A program made the position numbers and the translations under genes. A model generated the notes under the pieces. The model was given only the letters and a program-made list of their open reading frames with translations. It was not told the DNA's origin and did no database searches. DNA of 64,000 bases from Methanobrevibacter ruminantium M1. GTDB taxonomy: Archaea > Methanobacteriota > Methanobacteria > Methanobacteriales > Methanobacteriaceae. Position 1 is the first letter of the stretch. Each line of letters begins with the position of its first letter. Of the stretch, positions 15,371 to 37,225 are shown one piece after another. Location of the stretch: assembly GCF_000024185.1 (NCBI RefSeq), contig NC_013790.1:1387501-1451500 (forward strand), read 5' to 3'.

Positions 15371-17824
15371 ATGAATTATAAAATTAGCATTATCATTCCA
15401 GTATACAATGTAGAAAATTACATTGAAAAATCATTAAACTCAATTATTTCACAGTCAATAGGTATTGAGAACCTAGAGGTCATATTAGTTGATGATAACT
15501 CTACAGATAATAGTGCAAATATTATAAAAAAATATGTTAGCAAATATGATAATTTTAAAGGAATATACTGTGACATTGGAAGTGGGTTCTGTGGCAGACC
15601 TAGAAATATTGGTTTAAGCTATGCTACTTCAGAGTATATAATGTATTTAGATTCTGATGATTGGTTAGAAGAAACTGCCTGTGAAGTATTATATAATACT
15701 ATCATTAATGAAAATGCAGACATTGTTTGTGGGAGTCAAACAAGACTAGACAATGAGGGCAATAGAAAATTTTATTATCACTTATGGGTTACTACATTAA
15801 CTGATCCGAATGAAGATTACAATACTCGAATGAAAACAACACAGGAAATTATAGACGATCCGAATTTTAAGTTAGTCGTTACAGATTTAGATAAAAATCC
15901 AAATATTTTAGGACATGCAAATGTCTGGGGGAAAATTTTTAAAAAGGACCTAATAACAGAAAATGAACTATCATTTCCAGAGGACATAGTTGCTCAAGAT
16001 TCAGTTTTTTTATTAAACTCCTTTTTCGTTGCTGAAAAAATTGTATTTATAAACGACATAATTGTTCATTATAACAATTTACGTTGCGATGATGATGATA
16101 AATCCGCTTCCTATGTAAAAACTACTAAAAATCTATTTGGCAGAATCAAAGCATATGATTTAATGGATAATATTAGTAAAAAATTTTCAAAGGAAGAATT
16201 TTTCTACAGATATTTATTAGTAGGCAAATTAAATTACTGGTTTAATTCATTTTTAATGGATTCTAATATTAGCACATATGAAATTAAGCTTCTTTTTAAA
16301 AAATATTCTCATTTATTTAGTAATTGTTATAAATTTAATACAAATCTACGAAAAGATATTAAAAATATTTTTAAAGAAATAGATGAGGGAAATTACGATA
16401 TTGCTGCATCAACTGTTTCAAAATTACAATCAAAATCATTTTCCGCAAGTGAAAACAAAATTAAAGTATCAGTAATTATTCCTATTTATAATAATGAAAA
16501 ATTTCTAAGCAAATGTTTAGATAGTGTTATAAATCAAACATTGAATGAAATAGAAATAATTTGTATTGATGATGGGTCTTCTGACAATTCTATTGAAATA
16601 TTAAATCAATACGTCCTTAAAGATTCACGTTTAAAAATTATATCTCAAGAGAATCTAGGGGCCGCTACAGCAAGGAACAATGGATTAAAAATTGCAAAAG
16701 GAGAATATATAGCATTTTTAGATTCAGATGATTGGTTGGAGCTAAATGCATTTGAAAAATTATATGAAAATATAACAACTAACAATTCAGATTTAGTCCT
16801 GTTTAACTCTATTGAACATAAGGAAAATGCTAATTTAAAAGAAAGAATTCATATAAAAAATGATTCAATCCCCGATTACAATTATTACACATTTAATTAT
16901 AATTATAAAAAAGACTTAGTTATGAATGGATATTTAGATATTTGGTCTAAAATGTATAGGACTTCATTTTTAAAAGAGAACAATATTCAATTTTCAAACC
17001 ATCAAATATTCAATGACATTCAATTTCACATAAAAACTATGTTAAATGCTAAAAAAATTTCTTATTGCCCAGAATTTTTATATAATTATTTAAGAATTAA
17101 TCACCCTTCTCTTCAAAATAATCTTAGCTTGGGCAATGAAAGTTTTATTCTTTTAGATATAATAGATGAAATCGAAGACTATTTAATCGACAATGAATTT
17201 TATAATGAATTAAAATCTAATTTTATAAGATTTAAATTAACTGAATTGGAAAGTACGCTAGAAAAATTAGAAAATCCTTATAGAAATGAATTCTTTAAAT
17301 TAATTAAAAATAACTTTAAGAAAATGCAATTGACAGAATATCAAAGAAAAGAATTACCTCCAGAGAACTATCAATTTTTTAATGATGTTTTAACATATGA
17401 TTCATTTTTTGAATATGCTTTAAAAAACAGTGAAAAGGAACGACAGAAATTAAGTAATGCCTTAGCGGATAGTGAAAAGGATCGGCAGAAATTAAGCAAT
17501 GACTTGGAAAATAGTGGAAAGGAACGGCAGAAATTAAGTGATGCCTTAGTGGATAGTGAAAAGGAACGAGAGAAATTAAGTGATGCTCTAGAGAGTAGTG
17601 AAAAGGAACGAGAGAAATTAAGTGATGCTCTAGAGAGTAGTGAAATTGAACGGCAGAAATTAAGTAATGCTCTAGAGAGTAGTGAAAAGGAACGACAAAA
17701 ACTAAGTAACGACCTAAAAAACAGCGAAAAAGAACAGGAACTTATTAAAAAAGAATTTACATCATCCAATAGTTGGAAAGTTACAGAACCCCTTCGAAAA
17801 ATCAGAAGAACAATTAAAAAATAA
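15371..17824 (+). CDS. Glycosyltransferase with two GT2 domains and a C-terminal coiled coil of 14-residue repeats
   Basis: I use the ATG at 15371 rather than a TTG three codons earlier; 817 residues result. The first GT2 domain has ISIIIPVYN, VDDNSTDNS and LDSDDW. The second (about 365-475) has VSVIIPIYNNE, IDDGSSDNS and LDSDDW. From about residue 688 the chain is a coiled coil of seven 14-residue repeats of the type SEKERQKLSNALES, encoded by a 42-bp tandem DNA repeat at 17432-17725. It ends in SNSWKVTEPLRKIRR, a tail common at the C-terminus of polysaccharide glycosyltransferases. The coiled coil could set spacing or chain length, as a molecular ruler does; that is inference. Confidence 0.83.
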   Translation: MNYKISIIIPVYNVENYIEKSLNSIISQSIGIENLEVILVDDNSTDNSANIIKKYVSKYDNFKGIYCDIGSGFCGRPRNIGLSYATSEYIMYLDSDDWLEETACEVLYNTIINENADIVCGSQTRLDNEGNRKFYYHLWVTTLTDPNEDYNTRMKTTQEIIDDPNFKLVVTDLDKNPNILGHANVWGKIFKKDLITENELSFPEDIVAQDSVFLLNSFFVAEKIVFINDIIVHYNNLRCDDDDKSASYVKTTKNLFGRIKAYDLMDNISKKFSKEEFFYRYLLVGKLNYWFNSFLMDSNISTYEIKLLFKKYSHLFSNCYKFNTNLRKDIKNIFKEIDEGNYDIAASTVSKLQSKSFSASENKIKVSVIIPIYNNEKFLSKCLDSVINQTLNEIEIICIDDGSSDNSIEILNQYVLKDSRLKIISQENLGAATARNNGLKIAKGEYIAFLDSDDWLELNAFEKLYENITTNNSDLVLFNSIEHKENANLKERIHIKNDSIPDYNYYTFNYNYKKDLVMNGYLDIWSKMYRTSFLKENNIQFSNHQIFNDIQFHIKTMLNAKKISYCPEFLYNYLRINHPSLQNNLSLGNESFILLDIIDEIEDYLIDNEFYNELKSNFIRFKLTELESTLEKLENPYRNEFFKLIKNNFKKMQLTEYQRKELPPENYQFFNDVLTYDSFFEYALKNSEKERQKLSNALADSEKDRQKLSNDLENSGKERQKLSDALVDSEKEREKLSDALESSEKEREKLSDALESSEIERQKLSNALESSEKERQKLSNDLKNSEKEQELIKKEFTSSNSWKVTEPLRKIRRTIKK
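17432..17725 (+). repeat. Seven 42-bp in-frame tandem repeats in the GT2 gene
   Basis: Seven consecutive 42-bp units start with GAAAAGGAACGACAGAAATT or a close variant and keep the frame. Copies four and five (17558-17641) are identical, which points to recent expansion. The number of units would change the length of the coiled coil by 14 residues each. Confidence 0.9.
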
Positions 17825-23988: not shown

Positions 23989-26670
23989 ATGGAGATAAGA
24001 TATAAAAATTTATTAAAAGTTTTTACTATTTTTCTTGTTTTACTCATCAGTTGCGGATTTGCCTCAGCAGTCAGTGATTTAGATGAAGGTAATTCTGCAA
24101 ATATTGTTGATAATGGTGATTTATCATTATCTGACAATATGATGAGTGAATCTGCAGATAATTGTAAAAATTTGGAAACTATTGAGGAGTCTCATACTTT
24201 CAGTGAAAAAAACACTGTTAAAGACGTTTCATATGGACTTTCAACACCTATAGATGGAAATACTTTTGAAGATATCCAAACTGCTATTGATAATGCTGCT
24301 GATGGAGATATTATTGAACTTAATGGTACTTATTTTGGAAACGGGTCTGATATAAAAATTACAAAAGATTTAACAATCAGCGGAAATCTTGAAACAATAT
24401 TGGATGCTAAAAACAAATCAGGTATTTTTTATGTTAACTCAAATAACGTAACTTTACAAAACTTAAAATTTTATAATTCAATAGTTCCTGAATATGGAAG
24501 TGCGGTTCATTTTTTAAGTAATGGTTCTGTGATTAATTGTACTTTTATAAATAATACTGCTGGTGGAGTTTATGGTACTATTGATTACTTTTGGTCTACT
24601 GGAGGTGTAGTATATTTGGCCAAGGGCAATGGCTCTGTGATTAATTGTACTTTTATAAATAATACTGCTAATGCAGATGGCGGTGCAATTTATTGTGGAG
24701 TTGATGGCGGGTCTGTGATTAATTGTACATTTATTAATAATACTGCAAAAGAGTTAGGGGGTGCCATCTATATTGGCGGCGGTCATGACGGTGGCGCTCA
24801 TTATTCAAATGTTTATGATTGCTATGTAGATAATTGCGTATTTATTAACAATACTGCTGGTGAAGGTGCTGGGATTTATTATGGCGGAGGCGGTTTAATA
24901 TTTAATTGTACTTTTATTAATAACACTGCTCGTTTTGGAGATTCAATTCTAGTAAATAATATGTATTATCCTAACACTGTGTCTGATATGAAAACTCTTA
25001 CTATTAAGGAATGTGATTTTAAGAGTAATAAAGAGGGTTGGGGATATGTAGTAGTTAATTATAAAGCATACAAAAACACTATCTGTGGACTTTGTGAAAT
25101 TATTGATTCAAATTTCTCTAATGAACAAGCAGAAGATTATATAAATATTTATAATCAAGGAAATATTTATTTGTCTGGAAACAAGATTTCATCTAATTAC
25201 GCTACAATATCTAATGATTTAATAGCTTATGGTAATAATGCAAATATTACCTCACAAACAAGCCTTGTAATTTTGGATAATACTACTAAAAGTGTAGAAA
25301 AATATTCTCCATTTGATGTTTATGCAGTTCTTGTAGATGATCAAGGAAATTATATTCGTGATGAAAACATTAGTTTATTTATTGGTTCTAAGAATGTAAC
25401 TGGCGTATTTGATAATGTAAACTTATTCAAATATCATTTAAATGATTTAAGTTCATTAAATTATAGAACTCTTGTTTCAGGCAATTATGATGGAGCAAAA
25501 GATTTGGTTGTTAAAACAGGCGTTTTACAGTTAGATGTAGAGGTCGATATTGACTTGGATTATGAGGATGATAATGTTATTATAAAACTTAAAGATTCTG
25601 AAGGAAATCCTATTTCCGGAGAGTCTGTTTCACTTTTAATAGATAATAATACTAGCTCTGTGAAAACTGACTCAAATGGTGAAGCTAAAGTTCCAGTTAA
25701 TGAAATATCTATGGTCAAGGCAATTTTCACTGATGGTTTTGGAGTTAATGTCAGTTCCTATTTAGTGGTAAAAGCAGTTGAAAAGGTAAAACTTGTTCCA
25801 ACTTTTGCCAATGCAAAAATTTCATTAGATGTTGAAGATAATTGCAGTGCTGTTATTGTCACTTTGAAAGATTTATCCGGCAACCCTATCAGTTCTGCAA
25901 AACTTGATGCACTTGTTAATGGTGCTGGCAAAACTTTAATCACCAACGCTTCAGGTCAGGCAAAAATTGATATTGAAGGTAACGCTACAGTGGAAGTGAC
26001 TTATATTGATGCAGAGAATGCTAATGCAACAGTATCAAGCAGCCTTACTGTAATAAAGAATGTTGACTCAGTTCCGGTTATTCCAAATAGGACAGCCACT
26101 AATATCATTTGTAAAGATATGAATACAACTGCAGTAGCCAAACCGGATGGAAGAATAGGAAAATACTTCGAGGTCACTTTAGTTGATGTAAATGGCAAGG
26201 CATTAGCTAATAAATCAGTTAATATAGGATTCAATGGAGCAGTTTATAATCTTACAACAAATGAAACCGGGGGCGCAAAACTTCAAATCAACCTTGGATA
26301 CGAAGGCAAATACACCTTTGCAATAGCATTCCTAGGTGACGACAACTATACTGGATCTTTTAAAGTGGCCCTTATTTCAGTAAGTAAACACAGTCCAAAA
26401 CTTTCAGCACCTGCAAAAACATATAAGGCAAATGCAAAAACTAAAACAATTACCGCTACATTCAAAACATCAAATGGAAATGCAATCAGCGGCAAGAAAA
26501 TAAGTTTCAACATTAATGGAAAAACTTATAGCGGAACTACAAACTCAAAAGGAGTCGCCAGTGTGAAGATAAGTTTAAACAAGAAAGGAACTTATAGTTG
26601 CACTGCCAAATATGCAGGAGATGGAATGTATAAAGCAACAAGCACTAAATTCAATGTAAAAATAGTATAA
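23989..26670 (+). CDS. Adhesin-like secreted protein 1 (beta-helix plus Ig-like repeats)
   Basis: The protein has 893 residues. A signal peptide (1-27) has a hydrophobic core VFTIFLVLLISCGFA and an ASA cleavage site. Residues 80-420 form a right-handed parallel beta-helix with repeated INCTFINNTA rungs. From about 510 to the end are four Ig-like domains, each with a pattern of V-x-L-x-D-x-x-G-N-x-I-S and a later N-G-x-A. There is no C-terminal membrane anchor or sorting motif. Similar proteins are the adhesin-like proteins of gut Methanobrevibacter, thought to mediate contact with other cells or host surfaces. The start ATG follows GGAG. Residues 1-85 are almost identical to the protein at 27098. 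Confidence 0.85.
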   Translation: MEIRYKNLLKVFTIFLVLLISCGFASAVSDLDEGNSANIVDNGDLSLSDNMMSESADNCKNLETIEESHTFSEKNTVKDVSYGLSTPIDGNTFEDIQTAIDNAADGDIIELNGTYFGNGSDIKITKDLTISGNLETILDAKNKSGIFYVNSNNVTLQNLKFYNSIVPEYGSAVHFLSNGSVINCTFINNTAGGVYGTIDYFWSTGGVVYLAKGNGSVINCTFINNTANADGGAIYCGVDGGSVINCTFINNTAKELGGAIYIGGGHDGGAHYSNVYDCYVDNCVFINNTAGEGAGIYYGGGGLIFNCTFINNTARFGDSILVNNMYYPNTVSDMKTLTIKECDFKSNKEGWGYVVVNYKAYKNTICGLCEIIDSNFSNEQAEDYINIYNQGNIYLSGNKISSNYATISNDLIAYGNNANITSQTSLVILDNTTKSVEKYSPFDVYAVLVDDQGNYIRDENISLFIGSKNVTGVFDNVNLFKYHLNDLSSLNYRTLVSGNYDGAKDLVVKTGVLQLDVEVDIDLDYEDDNVIIKLKDSEGNPISGESVSLLIDNNTSSVKTDSNGEAKVPVNEISMVKAIFTDGFGVNVSSYLVVKAVEKVKLVPTFANAKISLDVEDNCSAVIVTLKDLSGNPISSAKLDALVNGAGKTLITNASGQAKIDIEGNATVEVTYIDAENANATVSSSLTVIKNVDSVPVIPNRTATNIICKDMNTTAVAKPDGRIGKYFEVTLVDVNGKALANKSVNIGFNGAVYNLTTNETGGAKLQINLGYEGKYTFAIAFLGDDNYTGSFKVALISVSKHSPKLSAPAKTYKANAKTKTITATFKTSNGNAISGKKISFNINGKTYSGTTNSKGVASVKISLNKKGTYSCTAKYAGDGMYKATSTKFNVKIV

Positions 26671-26691
26671 GAACACTAAATTGCTGTTCTT
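26669..26691 (+). terminator. Hairpin plus T-run after adhesin 1
   Basis: AAGAACA and TGTTCTT pair across a nine-base loop right at the stop codon, followed by CTACTTTTTTTATT. Confidence 0.6.
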
Positions 26692-26892
26692 CTACTTTTT
26701 TTATTATTTTTGGATTTCAATTGTTTTTTTTTTAATTGGTTTATTGATCAATATTTTTTCAACATAATTTTTTTCTATTTTTATAATTTAACCTTATTCT
26801 TCTATTTTTTTAAGTTATAAAATGTAAGTTAAAAACATTTTTTTTGAAAAATCTTTCTTTTTTTAAAAATAAGAATTATTAGAACTTTTTTT

Positions 26893-27097
26893 AGGTTTTT
26901 TTTTATACTTGGCTGATATAATCTAAGAAAAAACATATACTCAATAATAATTTAATCTTGTTATTTTATTAATATAATTATATATTAACATAGTAAAGTT
27001 CATATATTTTATAAATTATATGTCTTTATATATAATAAAAGAAAATCTTAATAAAAGAAAATCTTAATAAAAGAAAATCTTAATAAAAGGAGATATT
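26893..27097 (+). promoter_or_regulatory. Conserved adhesin upstream block, copy 2
   Basis: It matches 23824-23988 from AGGTTTTTTTTTATACTTGG to the GGAG site, but carries three tandem copies of AAAAGAAAATCTTAAT just before the ribosome binding site, which copy 1 has only once. The rest of the 26671-27097 spacer is T-rich with no gene. Confidence 0.6.
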
Positions 27098-29371
27098 ATG
27101 AAGATAAGATATAAAAATTTATTAAAAGTTTTTACTATTTTTCTTGTTTTACTCATCAGTTGCGGATTTGCCTCAGCAGTCAGTGATTTAGATGAAGGTA
27201 ATTCTGCAAATATTGTTGATAATGGTGATTTATCATTATCTGACAATATGATGAGTGATTCTGCAAATAATTGTAAAAATTTGGAAACTATTGAGGAGTC
27301 TCATACATTTAGTGAGAAAAGCACTGTTAAAGACGTTTCATATGGACTTTCAACACCTATAGATGGAAATACTTTTGAGGATATCCAAATAGCCATTGAT
27401 GATGCTCAAGATGGGGACACAATCCAACTAAACGGCACTTATCTTGGAAATGGAAGCCCAATAATTTTTTCAAAAAACTTAACTATTGGAGGTAGCGGCG
27501 AAACAATTTTGGATGCTAATGGATTATCTGGCATTATCAATTCGTCTTCTGAAAAAATTGTCTTGAAAGATTTAACATTTGTTAATGGGTCTGGATTCAC
27601 AGTTGATTTGAGGGAGAATAATGGTGATAATTTAAAATATTGCTCAATAATTAATTGTTCCTTTGAAAAGTGTTATGGGGATAAAAATTCTGCCGTTATC
27701 TGTTTAAATGGATCTGGAATAATCTTAGATTGTGATTTTCACTATACTAATTGCACTATAAATATTATGGGTTCTGAGGATGTTTCCATTTTAAACTCTT
27801 CTTTTAATTATACTGGCGGATATGCTATCCATTCTAATTCAAGCACCATTGTTAAAGCATGTGATTTTTATTTCAATAGTTTCTTTGAAACATATTATGA
27901 GAATACTAATAAAGTGTACAATGGCAATATTGTTGACTTATGTAAGAATTCATCAATCAGTGATTGTATGTTCAAAGGCACATATTATGAAACAATTATT
28001 GATTCCCTAGTTGATTCCAATACTTATCAATTCAGCACACTCCATGTCTGTGATGAAGTTGATGTTATAAATTGTACTTTCATTAGATCTATAACAGAAT
28101 TTTCTGGTTCTGCCATTTACCATTTTGGAAACGGATCTATAATCAATTGTACGTTCATTAACAATTCTGCTGGAGGAAGCCATGGAACTCCTTCTTACCT
28201 TTATACACAGGATGGCGTTGTATATATAGGTTCTGATGATTGTTTAGTTCTTAATTGTACTTTTATAAATTGTCATTCCAATACATTCGGAGGTGCTTTA
28301 TATATTAATGCAAGAAATTGCTATGTTATAAATTCCACTTTCATTAAAAATAGTGCTTATGAAGGGGGTGCGATTTATCTTGCTCAAGGGGATTGTTATG
28401 TAATAAATCCTGTTTTTTCTAATAATAAGGCCAATCATTCACTTTATAATGATATTAACGATTTAAATGCTGTTTCATATGAAAATGACACCTCTGATGA
28501 TAATCAGACTGAAAAGATTATTAACCCTTCAATTGAATTAGATTATTTGGATGATAATCTTATTATAATTTTCAAGGATATTGAAGGAAAAGCAATTTCT
28601 GGAGAGTCTGTTTCACTTATAATAAATAATAAGACTATTTCTGTGATAACTGATTCAAATGGAGAAGCTAAAGTTCCACTTAATGAGACTTCTATGGTTA
28701 AGGCATTCTATGTAGATGCCAATGGTTTGAATGTTAGCTCTTCCATGATGATTAAAATAGTCGAGAAAACTAATTATATTCCTATAAAAAGAAATTCAAG
28801 TTTTATTGATTGTAAGAATATGACTACCTCTGCAATAACTAACAGTAAAATTAGGGATGGGGAATATTTCGTTGTAAGCCTAAAGGATGCAAATGGAAAG
28901 CCATTATCAAATAAGCCAATCCAAATAGGATTCAATGGAAAAGCATATGACAGAACCACTAATGAAAACGGCTCTGCAAGACTTCAGATAAACCTTGCTT
29001 ATGTTGGCACTTACACATTTGCAGTCTGTTTTTTAGGTGATGATTACTACAATGGATCATTTGTAGTGGCAAAAATTGATGTAAATGCACAAAAAGCCAG
29101 CTTAAATGCACCTTCCAAAACTTATAAGGCATCAACAAAGACAAAAGCATTAACAGCAACATTGAAAGATGCAAAAGGAAGATTGGTCAGCGGAAAGTCA
29201 ATAAGCTTCACAATAAATGGAAAAAGCTATGTCGCAAAGACCAATACCAATGGAGTAGCCACAGTAAAGGTAAGTCTAAGCAAAAAAGGAACTTATAATT
29301 TCACTGCCAAGTTGGACAATGATAAAACATTCAAGACAACTGCATCAAGTGGAAAATTAGTAATAAAATAA
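27098..29371 (+). CDS. Adhesin-like secreted protein 2 (beta-helix plus Ig-like repeats)
   Basis: The protein has 757 residues and is paralogous to the protein at 23989. The signal peptide and first 85 residues differ at only about four positions. The beta-helix (about 90-460) has diverged but keeps rungs such as INCTFINNSAGG and LNCTFINC. Three Ig-like domains follow (from about 480), of which the first (GESVSL, TDSNGEAKVP) is also very close to its counterpart. There is no membrane anchor, so retention on the cell is unexplained. The start follows GGAG. Expected location is outside the cytoplasmic membrane. Confidence 0.85.
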   Translation: MKIRYKNLLKVFTIFLVLLISCGFASAVSDLDEGNSANIVDNGDLSLSDNMMSDSANNCKNLETIEESHTFSEKSTVKDVSYGLSTPIDGNTFEDIQIAIDDAQDGDTIQLNGTYLGNGSPIIFSKNLTIGGSGETILDANGLSGIINSSSEKIVLKDLTFVNGSGFTVDLRENNGDNLKYCSIINCSFEKCYGDKNSAVICLNGSGIILDCDFHYTNCTINIMGSEDVSILNSSFNYTGGYAIHSNSSTIVKACDFYFNSFFETYYENTNKVYNGNIVDLCKNSSISDCMFKGTYYETIIDSLVDSNTYQFSTLHVCDEVDVINCTFIRSITEFSGSAIYHFGNGSIINCTFINNSAGGSHGTPSYLYTQDGVVYIGSDDCLVLNCTFINCHSNTFGGALYINARNCYVINSTFIKNSAYEGGAIYLAQGDCYVINPVFSNNKANHSLYNDINDLNAVSYENDTSDDNQTEKIINPSIELDYLDDNLIIIFKDIEGKAISGESVSLIINNKTISVITDSNGEAKVPLNETSMVKAFYVDANGLNVSSSMMIKIVEKTNYIPIKRNSSFIDCKNMTTSAITNSKIRDGEYFVVSLKDANGKPLSNKPIQIGFNGKAYDRTTNENGSARLQINLAYVGTYTFAVCFLGDDYYNGSFVVAKIDVNAQKASLNAPSKTYKASTKTKALTATLKDAKGRLVSGKSISFTINGKSYVAKTNTNGVATVKVSLSKKGTYNFTAKLDNDKTFKTTASSGKLVIK

Positions 29372-33771: not shown

Positions 33772-34902
33772 ATTTATTTCAAGCATAGAGTATATGGATT
33801 CATATTTAATCTATTTAGGATTTTTCCACTAAAAAAGAATAGAGTCTCATTTATCACTACCAAAAACGCTTCTTTTGAGAGCAACTTGCGTTATATCGCA
33901 GATGAGCTTAAAGGTCGCAAGACTTCAGATGGAAAGCCCTATGAATTTGAATTCATTCCAAAGGATGAGTTTTCATTGTCTAATATGAAGAAATTAGCCA
34001 CCTCCAAGTACATTTTTCTAACTGACAACTTCTTTGCACTTGCCTTCATGAGATTCAATAAGAAGACAAAGCTCATTCAGCTATGGCATGGAACTGGAAT
34101 ATTCAAGAAATTCGGCTATGACCTTCTTGAGGATGAACAGAAGAAGACCATGCTTAAGTTTTCAAACAAGATCACCAATCTTATGGTCAGCTCACACAAT
34201 GTGATTGACATTTATGCCCGCAATTTTGCAATAGATAAGTCTAAGGTTCTTCCTTTAGGGATTCCTCGAAATGACTATTACTCTCCAGAGCATCTGGATG
34301 AGGACTATGTAAGACAATTGAGGGGCGAGTTTGAACAGAGGTATCCTAATCTTAGGGGTAAAAAGATAGTCCTATATGCTCCCACATTTAGGGAAGACCC
34401 TAAATACAATGCTGTGTTTAATTATTTTGACATTGAAAAGTTCATTGATGAGCTCGGGGATGATTATATATTATGCATCAAGCTTCATCCAAACTACAAT
34501 AAGTTTGCAGATAGTGCTAATAGGATTGACCTTGATGAGCTCACTGACACTTATAACATAGTTAACTTTACAGAATATAAGGATGAGCAGAAGCTTTTCT
34601 TAATCTCTAACATTCTTATTACAGACTATTCCTCTGTTATGGTTGAGTATACTCTTCTTAATAGGCCAATCATTCTCTTTGCATATGACTTGGACAATTA
34701 TCTTGAAAATGAGAGAGGATTCTATTTCGATTACAGAAAGGAAGTTCCGGGCAGAATTGTAAAGGATACAGATGAGTTGGTTAGGGTAATCAGAGAGAAG
34801 GATTTTAATCTATCTAACTTGAAGGAGTTTGCAGAGTTTCAGTTTGATTATTTTGATGCATATAGCAGCAAACGTATTTTGGATTATGTTTTGGAGGAAT
34901 AA
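33772..34902 (+). CDS. CDP-glycerol glycerophosphotransferase-like protein (start codon unclear)
   Basis: The core has RVSFITTKNASFESNLRYIA at the N-terminus, LIQLWHGTG, VLYAPTFRED, CIKLHPNYN and ITDYSSVMVEYTLLNRPI, all typical of the teichoic-type glycerophosphotransferases. The first ATG/GTG/TTG in frame is a TTG at 33886, inside the conserved N-terminus and without a good ribosome binding site. The frame stays open and protein-like (IYFKHRVYGFIFNLFRIFP) back to 33751. GGAG at 33760-33763 sits eight bases before an ATT at 33772, so I annotate that as the start (376 residues). It follows the fusion gene and probably acts with it. Confidence 0.75.
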   Translation: MYFKHRVYGFIFNLFRIFPLKKNRVSFITTKNASFESNLRYIADELKGRKTSDGKPYEFEFIPKDEFSLSNMKKLATSKYIFLTDNFFALAFMRFNKKTKLIQLWHGTGIFKKFGYDLLEDEQKKTMLKFSNKITNLMVSSHNVIDIYARNFAIDKSKVLPLGIPRNDYYSPEHLDEDYVRQLRGEFEQRYPNLRGKKIVLYAPTFREDPKYNAVFNYFDIEKFIDELGDDYILCIKLHPNYNKFADSANRIDLDELTDTYNIVNFTEYKDEQKLFLISNILITDYSSVMVEYTLLNRPIILFAYDLDNYLENERGFYFDYRKEVPGRIVKDTDELVRVIREKDFNLSNLKEFAEFQFDYFDAYSSKRILDYVLEE

Positions 34903-35295: not shown

Positions 35296-35628
35296 ATGGT
35301 TAGAAAGAAAGCAAGACGTCGAAAACGGCAAGAGGAAGATCCTATGGCTGGAACTACAAACCTTGTGGATGCAATGCTTGTTCTTGCATTGGGATTTCTC
35401 ATCTTTGCAGTTATCGGCTGGAACTTACAAAGCGTTATATTCAGTGATATGGACCCTCAGGAGCGACAGGCCACTATGGAGTCAATTAATCAAATCACTA
35501 ATGTAACTCAAGGAGAACAGTTAAACAGTACTCCAGACACATCAAACCAGTCTGGAGAAGGTTATGTAGAACAAGGTAAAGTTTATAAGGATTCGAAAAC
35601 GGGTAATCTGATTATGGTTGAAACTTAA
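35296..35628 (+). CDS. DUF2149 family single-pass membrane protein (ExbD-like topology)
   Basis: The protein has 110 residues. A very basic N-terminus (VRKKARRRKRQ) is followed by NLVDAMLVLALGFLIFAVIG, one membrane segment at about 22-45 with an aspartate (D25) near its start, and then a hydrophilic outer part with QGKVYKDSKTGNLIMVE at the end. I recognise DUF2149. The topology and the membrane-embedded aspartate recall ExbD/TolR/MotB subunits of ion-driven complexes, and the ExbB-like protein encoded at 36545 supports this. Direct homology to ExbD is inference. The start ATG follows AAGGT. The next gene begins 58 bases downstream. Confidence 0.7.
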   Translation: MVRKKARRRKRQEEDPMAGTTNLVDAMLVLALGFLIFAVIGWNLQSVIFSDMDPQERQATMESINQITNVTQGEQLNSTPDTSNQSGEGYVEQGKVYKDSKTGNLIMVET

Positions 35629-35686
35629 ACTTTTTAAAACCATGTCTTTAAATATTACTTTCAACTTTCTAAATTAATGTGATAAT

Positions 35687-36418
35687 ATGGAACTGATATT
35701 CAGCGTATTTGCAGTAATAAGCTTGGCAGCTATCCTGCTTCTAGGGATAGAGCTAGGATTATTATCAAAATTCTTTAATCTTTCATTAAAGAAGCATTTG
35801 ATTCTTGTACTTGCTTATTCTATCATAATATTTGCAGTCATTGTGATTCTCTCTCCATCTTATGAGGCAGTCCTTAATTCAACATTCTATAGCTTCTATT
35901 ATTATATAATAATGGGCTTTGTATGTCTTGCCCTTGGGCTTTTGACCCTTTTCTATTGGAGCAAGATGGAGTGGTATCCTCCTGCATTGAAATGTCTGCT
36001 GTATTTTGATTTTGTTCCTATTTCACTTAGTCTTATGCTGATTTCAACAGCTCTCATGGCTCCAAGCTTTGCATTTAAGGTACAGAACTTCTCTCTTAAT
36101 CTTACTATGGTCAATTCAGGACTAATTCTGGTGGTTCTAATGGCTATATTGATGGTGATATTCTATCTATTTTCCGATTTTGTTGAGGATTATAGAGTGA
36201 CTCATTATGCTATTATAATTGGAAGCTTGCTTCTTATATTTGCATTGGCATACTTTGTGCTGGGATTCATTATTCCAAATATGGCTCCAGTATTTGCAAA
36301 TCCTTCAACAGAGTTGACTTTAATGCCTATTGAGTCAATAGTTGTTATGGTTGTTCTTATAGCATTATTGCTTGGATTGGGGGCCTTATTTAGAAAGAGA
36401 ACTAATAGATTAGAATGA
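35687..36418 (+). CDS. DUF2162 family multi-pass membrane protein
   Basis: The protein has 243 residues with six or seven hydrophobic segments (for example 4-24, 35-55, 67-88, 103-124, 134-158, 170-195 and 215-235) and few charged residues. I recognise it as DUF2162, a methanogen membrane family often annotated as a predicted transporter. It lies between the DUF2149 and ExbB-like genes, which suggests a three-part membrane complex. No substrate site can be pointed out. The ATG follows GTGAT five bases upstream. A 10-bp microsatellite (about four copies of GTTATTATTC) follows at 36455-36490. Confidence 0.65.
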   Translation: MELIFSVFAVISLAAILLLGIELGLLSKFFNLSLKKHLILVLAYSIIIFAVIVILSPSYEAVLNSTFYSFYYYIIMGFVCLALGLLTLFYWSKMEWYPPALKCLLYFDFVPISLSLMLISTALMAPSFAFKVQNFSLNLTMVNSGLILVVLMAILMVIFYLFSDFVEDYRVTHYAIIIGSLLLIFALAYFVLGFIIPNMAPVFANPSTELTLMPIESIVVMVVLIALLLGLGALFRKRTNRLE

Positions 36419-36544
36419 TTTTTAAGATTTTTAATATTTCTTAAATCTGTTATTATTCGTTATTATTCGTTATTATTCGTTATATTCGTTTTTATTCATT
36501 TATTATTCATTATTTATTTATATATTAATTTATAGGTGATTATA

Positions 36545-37192
36545 TTGGCAATGACAATTCCTGGTGGTGACTTCTTAACCACTGGACTTAATTTAATTTC
36601 ACAAAGTCTTTTGATACCGGTAGTTATCATACTATTGGTTTTTGTTGTAGTTGTAGTGATTTCACTTGGAGGGCTTATCTATGAATACACTTCAAGGACA
36701 AAGGTATCTGTAGATGACGTGTCCAATCTGATTCTGGAGATTTCCGATTCAGGGTCTGTTGATTCCATGAAGTCTGCAATAGCAAACTCTCCGATTCCTA
36801 AGCTTCAAAAGGACATTCTGCTTAAGATAGCAAGCACAGGAAATATGAGCCCTAATACAAGAGAGGCATTTGCCCGTAAGCTCATCGAGAATGAAGAGGG
36901 GCTAACTGACAAGTCCCTTGAGATAACTGACATAATTACACGTATCGGCCCTACACTTGGTTTGATGGGTACTCTTATCCCATTAGGTACAGGTCTTGCA
37001 GCACTTGGCTCTGGAGACGTCAATACTTTGTCCGAGTCCTTGATTGTTGCATTTGATACAACTGTAGTGGGTATCGGTTCCGGTGCTTTGGCTTATGTTA
37101 TTTCAAAGCTTAGAAATAGGTGGTATGAGGAATATCTATCTAATTTAGATGTTTTATCTGATGCTGTATTGGATTTTATGGCTAAACATTAG
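36545..37192 (+). CDS. MotA/TolQ/ExbB-family proton channel protein
   Basis: I use the TTG at 36545, six bases after GGTG; the frame also has a GTG inside that site (36536) and an ATG at 36551. About 215 residues result. There are three membrane segments: one near the N-terminus (VVIILLVFVVVVVISLGGLIY) and two after a cytoplasmic loop. The ExbB signature is clear in RIGPTLGLMGTLIPLGTGLA and IVAFDTTVVGIGSGALAYVI. In bacteria these subunits pass protons or sodium ions to drive TonB, Tol or flagellar motors. An archaeon has no TonB-dependent outer membrane, so the driven process here is unknown. Confidence 0.8.
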   Translation: MAMTIPGGDFLTTGLNLISQSLLIPVVIILLVFVVVVVISLGGLIYEYTSRTKVSVDDVSNLILEISDSGSVDSMKSAIANSPIPKLQKDILLKIASTGNMSPNTREAFARKLIENEEGLTDKSLEITDIITRIGPTLGLMGTLIPLGTGLAALGSGDVNTLSESLIVAFDTTVVGIGSGALAYVISKLRNRWYEEYLSNLDVLSDAVLDFMAKH

Positions 37193-37194
37193 TT

Positions 37195-37225
37195 GAATTA
37201 GTTTTAAACTAATTTAAACTAATTC
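37195..37225 (+). terminator. Hairpin plus T-run after the ExbB-like gene
   Basis: GAATTAGTTT and AAACTAATTC form a 10-bp stem, followed by TTTTTTTTATT. It closes the DUF2149-DUF2162-ExbB unit. Confidence 0.65.

Follow-up and report, generated by a model that had tools for sequence, protein, structure and literature searches.

An ExbB-DUF2149 gene module of Methanobrevibacter ruminantium as a candidate ion-driven motor for membrane-anchored extracytoplasmic proteins

In a 64,000-nucleotide stretch (the window) of the Methanobrevibacter ruminantium M1 genome, which comprises 2,937,203 bases in one contig, we analyzed three adjacent genes encoding a DUF2149 protein, a polytopic DUF2162 protein and an ExbB-type channel subunit. 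We lean slightly towards the reading that this trio acts as an ion-driven motor, its clients being membrane-anchored extracytoplasmic proteins and, ancestrally, chelatases. The genes of the cluster, with their Pfam matches, are as follows.

33886..34902, + strand: CDP-glycerol glycerophosphotransferase, 5' gene of the conserved cluster (PF04464, E 1.3e-71)
35296..35628, + strand: DUF2149 protein (HmuV-like), proposed axle (PF09919, E 4.6e-20)
35687..36418, + strand: DUF2162 polytopic protein (PF09930, E 1.5e-37)
36545..37192, + strand: ExbB/TolQ/MotA-type channel subunit (PF01618, MotA_ExbB, E 1.7e-10)

A profile search of the window open reading frames placed the DUF2149, DUF2162 and MotA_ExbB matches each above the Pfam cut-off, and the three genes, which a preliminary description had located here from the sequence, all match curated families far beyond chance. 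That description had also assigned to DUF2149 a basic N-terminus, a single membrane pass and an aspartate at this segment, and had recognized a multi-pass membrane protein and an ExbB-type channel subunit in an archaeon. These features were confirmed: the aspartate is D25 of the one membrane helix, DUF2162 has about 7 membrane helices, and the channel subunit scores 41.2 bits for PF01618 against a cut-off of 22.9. The terminator that it placed after the trio was not recovered, as a bacterial-type scan found none 3' of 37192, where a T-rich tract is present. The ExbB start was refined to TTG 36545 because relatives start with MAMAIPGG, and this TTG is probably the start codon. A short tandem repeat (gttattattc) was seen at 36450-36495, between DUF2162 and ExbB, and the gap of approximately 125 bases between these genes could have room for a promoter. 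Elsewhere in the window (23989-29371), two adjacent adhesin genes have near-identical N-termini and are likely the result of a recent duplication.

Membership of the channel subunit in the ExbB/TolQ/MotA family (PF01618) was supported both by its score over the cut-off and by a conserved channel motif. Thr143, in GLMGT, aligns with the Thr in GLFGT of E. coli ExbB, and residues P136, G139, L140, G142, T143, A169 and G176 are common to the window protein, E. coli ExbB and TolQ; a profile search also matched it to MotA chains 6ysl, 9luc and 9lu9 (E 0.002-0.004). The window ExbB shares its channel signature with ExbB, TolQ and MotA of the 5:2 motors ExbB-ExbD, TolQ-TolR and MotA-MotB. Unlike these motors, the trio is accompanied by neither TonB nor TolA, and it seems to have an anchored exoprotein as client. 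An ExbB-type machine, presumably ion-driven, is supported in this archaeon. The same genome contains a canonical pair of ExbB (279 aa) and ExbD (133 aa, LVPFIDILFTLLIF) at 2372172-2373460 on the minus strand (L205), about 2.5 kb from an MreB-like gene; the host is a pseudomurein-walled archaeon.

Like ExbD, TolR and MotB, DUF2149 has a single transmembrane helix with a conserved Asp near its inner, cytoplasmic end, and Asp25 was invariant across the aligned archaeal and bacterial members. Comparison of the DUF2149 profile with ExbD gave a weak hhalign match (probability 26%, E 7e-4, 37 columns), which pairs Asp25 (NLVDAMLV) with the ExbD Asp (PFIDIMLV), whereas PF02472 (ExbD/TolR) gave no match to the window DUF2149 at E up to 1. 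The structure model of DUF2149, which is of low confidence (mean pLDDT 62.6; helix 20-48, strands 95-98 and 105-108), contains past the membrane helix just a short helix and a C-terminal beta-hairpin, and in this it differs from ExbD and TolR, whose folded periplasmic domain is absent from the model. Thus, the analysis supports an ExbD-like Asp-bearing helix in DUF2149 but does not support DUF2149 as an ExbD proper. Utrophin and dystrophin, which appeared when the profile was compared with solved structures, were chance matches only and were rejected as DUF2149 relatives.

The DUF2162 model (mean pLDDT 84) yielded nothing meaningful in a fold search against the PDB (best E 0.56). An APCPCC motif was found in a transmembrane helix of all 26 DUF2162 copies that follow a CobN-sized gene (a complete upstream gene of 1,400-1,800 aa) and in some copies elsewhere, but in no window-type copy, the window DUF2162 included. 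A CPC motif within a helix is found in ATPases that transport metals, and membrane electron carriers of the CcdA type likewise contain paired cysteines.

The M. ruminantium genome contains five DUF2149 genes, each adjoining an ExbB gene. DUF2162 was recognized twice in the genome, and a divergent polytopic protein fills its position at the copy near 474 kb. In the vicinity of the other four ExbB-DUF2149 copies are genes for large proteins that combine a signal peptide with a C-terminal membrane anchor, namely proteins of 967 aa, at least 948 aa (encoded two genes 5' of ExbB), 1,875 aa (carrying a CobN/Mg-chelatase domain) and 696 aa (containing a beta-helix). CobN adjoins the copy at 2.615 Mb, and neither CobN nor HmuS was found adjacent to the window copy. 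Both a signal peptide and a C-terminal anchor were present in 4 of the 8 open reading frames of at least 400 aa near these four copies, compared with 1 of 145 across 800 kb taken from other parts of the genome (Fisher p 1.6e-5), a p value that serves as a guide, since the near regions were picked for holding the pair and anchors were called by a simple hydropathy rule. Weak matches to Mg_chelatase (AAA+) are also present in the genome. Previously, RNA-seq of M. ruminantium exposed to lauric acid showed that ExbB mru_0329 (+1.56) and adhesin mru_0327 (+1.73) are both up (PMC5816558). Because mru_0332 is fdhC and the gene order before fdhC fits the mru_ tags, both genes were placed at the 474 kb copy; their joint rise is co-expression and nothing more.

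Linkage of these genes extends well beyond M. ruminantium. DUF2149 was found in 136 and CobN in 119 of 152 genomes of the phylum. Among the matches listed, DUF2149 lies 3' of CobN on the same strand in at least 30 genomes, CobN always precedes DUF2149 when the two are within 8 kb, and the gap between them is mostly 2.0-2.1 kb, enough for DUF2162 and ExbB. In 80 fetched loci, ExbB was located within two genes of 71 of the 72 distinct DUF2149 genes, so that the linkage exceeds chance, and an anchored protein was found within five genes in 38 of the 46 loci with enough flank. An absence of linkage among the three genes in other genomes, which the preliminary description had named as a refutation, was contradicted by this comparison, in which they are widely linked. 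Further archaeal partners included FmdE-domain proteins, as well as the CbiM cobalt permease together with small anchored proteins. In the latter loci (L125, L131 and L163), these genes lie near a polytopic-ExbB-DUF2149 set, one small anchored protein is His-rich near its start (HPGHG), and a metal capture system is possible. Two contigs titled Bacillales and Clostridia (L092 and L151) carry Methanobacteriales-type genes and are probably misbinned.

The order DUF2149-DUF2162-ExbB was kept in 12 congeners, in one of which the contig ends too soon for the flanks to be read. The CDP-glycerol glycerophosphotransferase gene is directly 5' of the trio in all 11 readable congeners, and the window holds a large glycan cluster with an ABC-type exporter. 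Both observations would suit a window copy whose target is the cell wall or some surface polymer, with the motor helping to export or arrange a teichoic-acid-like polymer and the glycerophosphotransferase setting the task. However, no such neighbor was found at the other four copies in the genome or at the bacterial ones, and the genes further 5' vary between congeners. We regard this reading as improbable, and any such wall or surface-polymer work would be specific to the window copy.

The 3' flank points instead to a surface protein as the client that we favor. In 8 of the 11 congeners, the next gene 3' of the trio encodes an anchored beta-helix protein of 1,272-1,308 aa, and, in 4 of the 5 loci with sequence long enough, genes for an ECF-type transporter (T, ATPase and S components) come next. 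Of the remaining congeners, one (L071) has the start of a secreted protein 3' of the trio, and in another (L074) a different secreted protein is followed by a fragment of ExbB and then by the first part of a homologue, which runs into the end of the stretch. This fragment, a partial second ExbB frame of 124 aa at ~15846-16220 in reversed orientation, is 88% identical to the window copy and is a partial duplication of the cluster. In the window and a near relative (G034), a potassium-channel-like gene takes the place of the beta-helix gene. A full-length homologue (1,351 aa; 57% and 50% identity in two parts) is nevertheless encoded in M. ruminantium at 1,625,719-1,629,771, where it adjoins the same three ECF-type transporter genes; it keeps the C-terminal anchor and the juxtamembrane sequence ARAYNLDVDED seen in the congener homologues, which contains the box described below. 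A rearrangement thus parted the trio from its supposed client and left both intact, which fits action in trans. Most probably, the window copy serves this beta-helix surface protein near 1.626 Mb, although the fact that the supposed client does not adjoin the trio counts against our preferred explanation. A cell-surface protein as the likely driven object, an idea already voiced in the preliminary description, was supported.

Right before the C-terminal anchor, a short motif recurs in many candidate clients whose folds are unrelated (KAYEV, KSYEV, KSIEI, NAYEL and TAYNL), for which the archaeal pattern is [AS]-[YI]-[EN]-[VIL]. The strict box was present in 19 of 32 anchored-protein families (2 of which are ExbB proteins included by mistake), as against 0.19 expected from shuffled segments, a contrast that overstates the surprise, since the pattern was derived from the test sequences and the coarse family rule splits CobN relatives. 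Trichlorobacter CobN has GFEMKET at the same position, and looser versions occur in other bacterial CobN proteins. The interaction between motor and client is predicted, and we infer that a short juxtamembrane box could also suit a protease or sorting enzyme. The pair might then be an ion channel with a conductive or regulatory role and no mechanical client, the box signaling, for example, sorting or proteolysis of anchored surface proteins. We judge this improbable, as the box clusters in proteins whose genes lie close to the pair, a looser counterpart sits in the same place in bacterial CobN, and known ExbB-class members couple ion flow to movement.

DUF2149 was also found in ten bacterial replicons of a plasmid collection, of which nine were read and a second Pseudoalteromonas was left out. 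CobN was close to the DUF2149-ExbB pair in all nine (Trichlorobacter, Prevotella, Bacteroides, Diaphorobacter, Runella, Aureibacter, a Comamonadaceae plasmid, Azospirillum and Pseudoalteromonas NC201), although in Pseudoalteromonas NC201, which came without a gene table, the CobN assignment relied on size, position and visual reading of the sequence. Hydrophobic stretches occur at both termini of most of these CobN proteins, one end being sub-threshold and judged by eye in some. Their genomic settings vary: heme (HmuY), genes for cobalamin, maturation of hydrogenase alongside a NicO-like permease, and transport of iron close to NikR. In Runella slithyformis pRUNSL01 (L221), CobN-ExbB-DUF2149 lies within a hyp hydrogenase-maturation cluster with the NicO-like permease, and nickel capture is a possible role of this locus. 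DUF2162 showed no similarity to the permease that occupies its place there.

The ExbB-DUF2149 pair corresponds to HmuU-HmuV of the Bacteroidota heme operon (PMC10434189, PMC10100974), so that the trio is not the wholly undescribed machine that had been suggested; the motor class is known, and its DUF2149 form is known as HmuUV. HmuV matches DUF2149 (E 2.1e-34), and the same DUF2149 and ExbB families occur in the same order in Prevotella and Bacteroides. In the hmu operon, too, a polytopic protein stands between the CobN-like HmuS (with hydrophobic segments at both ends) and the ExbB-like HmuU. However, HmuT gave a probability of 0.1 against the DUF2162 profile and no HmuT homologue was found in the trio, indicating that the third subunit has not been conserved between phyla. 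The archaeon also differs in having neither HmuY/HmuR nor an outer membrane, and the window copy is paired with the beta-helix protein rather than HmuS.

Published models of the hmu operon take HmuUV as a TonB energizer (PMC12583661, PMC10100974), and TonB-dependent receptors are near the pair in most bacterial loci. Accordingly, the pair might power import through such receptors, the archaeal copies being a derived use. We consider this unlikely, but less so than the two readings above: the pair is kept with CobN in archaea that have no outer membrane, the DUF2149 model shows no ExbD periplasmic domain, and the Trichlorobacter trio adjoins a separate, complete ExbB-ExbD-TonB set, which speaks against the trio as TonB energizer there.

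From the observed linkage, anchoring, box and residue conservation, we infer assembly, ion flow, contact, work and cargo along the following lines. ExbB would form the channel ring, with the Asp-bearing DUF2149 helix as axle, while the C-terminal beta-hairpin of DUF2149 would engage the box just before the membrane anchor of the client. DUF2162 would be an accessory polytopic subunit, and the CPCC in the membrane helix of its CobN-linked form may carry metal or electrons through the membrane. Ancestrally, the client may have been an outward-facing chelatase or de-chelatase of the CobN/HmuS class, which the motor would open and reset. In Methanobacteriaceae, the module may have been duplicated and then recruited to serve further anchored surface proteins.

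The class I chelatases CobNST and ChlHDI have the CobN subunit in common with the sister copy at 2.615 Mb, and CobN and ChlH are known to run on cytoplasmic ATPases (PMC7689651). Such ATPases are out of reach for a CobN that is anchored outside the cell; at 2.615 Mb, CobN is exported, anchored and adjoined by the channel pair instead of ATPase subunits, while the window copy differs from these enzymes in having no CobN. CobS and CobT are absent from Trichlorobacter (PMC3403914). HmuS takes iron from heme without ATP and resides in the membrane fraction, recombinant soluble HmuS is limited to 1-2 turnovers, and the functions of archaeal CobN homologues have been called unclear (PMC12583661). 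This turnover limit would be consistent with a motor that opens or resets HmuS, although the authors of that study name other possible causes. Against the motor reading, HmuS is somewhat active even with no motor present, the match of DUF2149 to ExbD is weak, the DUF2149 model is of low confidence and HmuUV has been published as a TonB energizer. The papers searched contained no link of ExbB-DUF2149 with anchored exoproteins in single-membrane archaea, and mentioned neither the box nor the displaced client.

More tentatively, ExbB-DUF2149 may be a general motor for membrane-anchored exoproteins that does not require an outer membrane, in which ion flow, not ATP, powers extracytoplasmic (de)chelatases, clients are known by the juxtamembrane box, and methanogens have come to use the motor also on surface proteins supplying uptake transporters. 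If so, HmuU-HmuV would drive HmuS rather than TonB, and the accepted role of a related motor in gut bacteria would change. Many archaeal CobN proteins would gain a conserved partner, a chelatase outside the cell would have an energy source, and there would be a testable reason for the halting of soluble HmuS after 1-2 turnovers. The box would become a sequence predictor of further clients, and an ExbB-type motor would be placed in single-membrane archaea, beyond its usual outer-membrane and flagellar settings.
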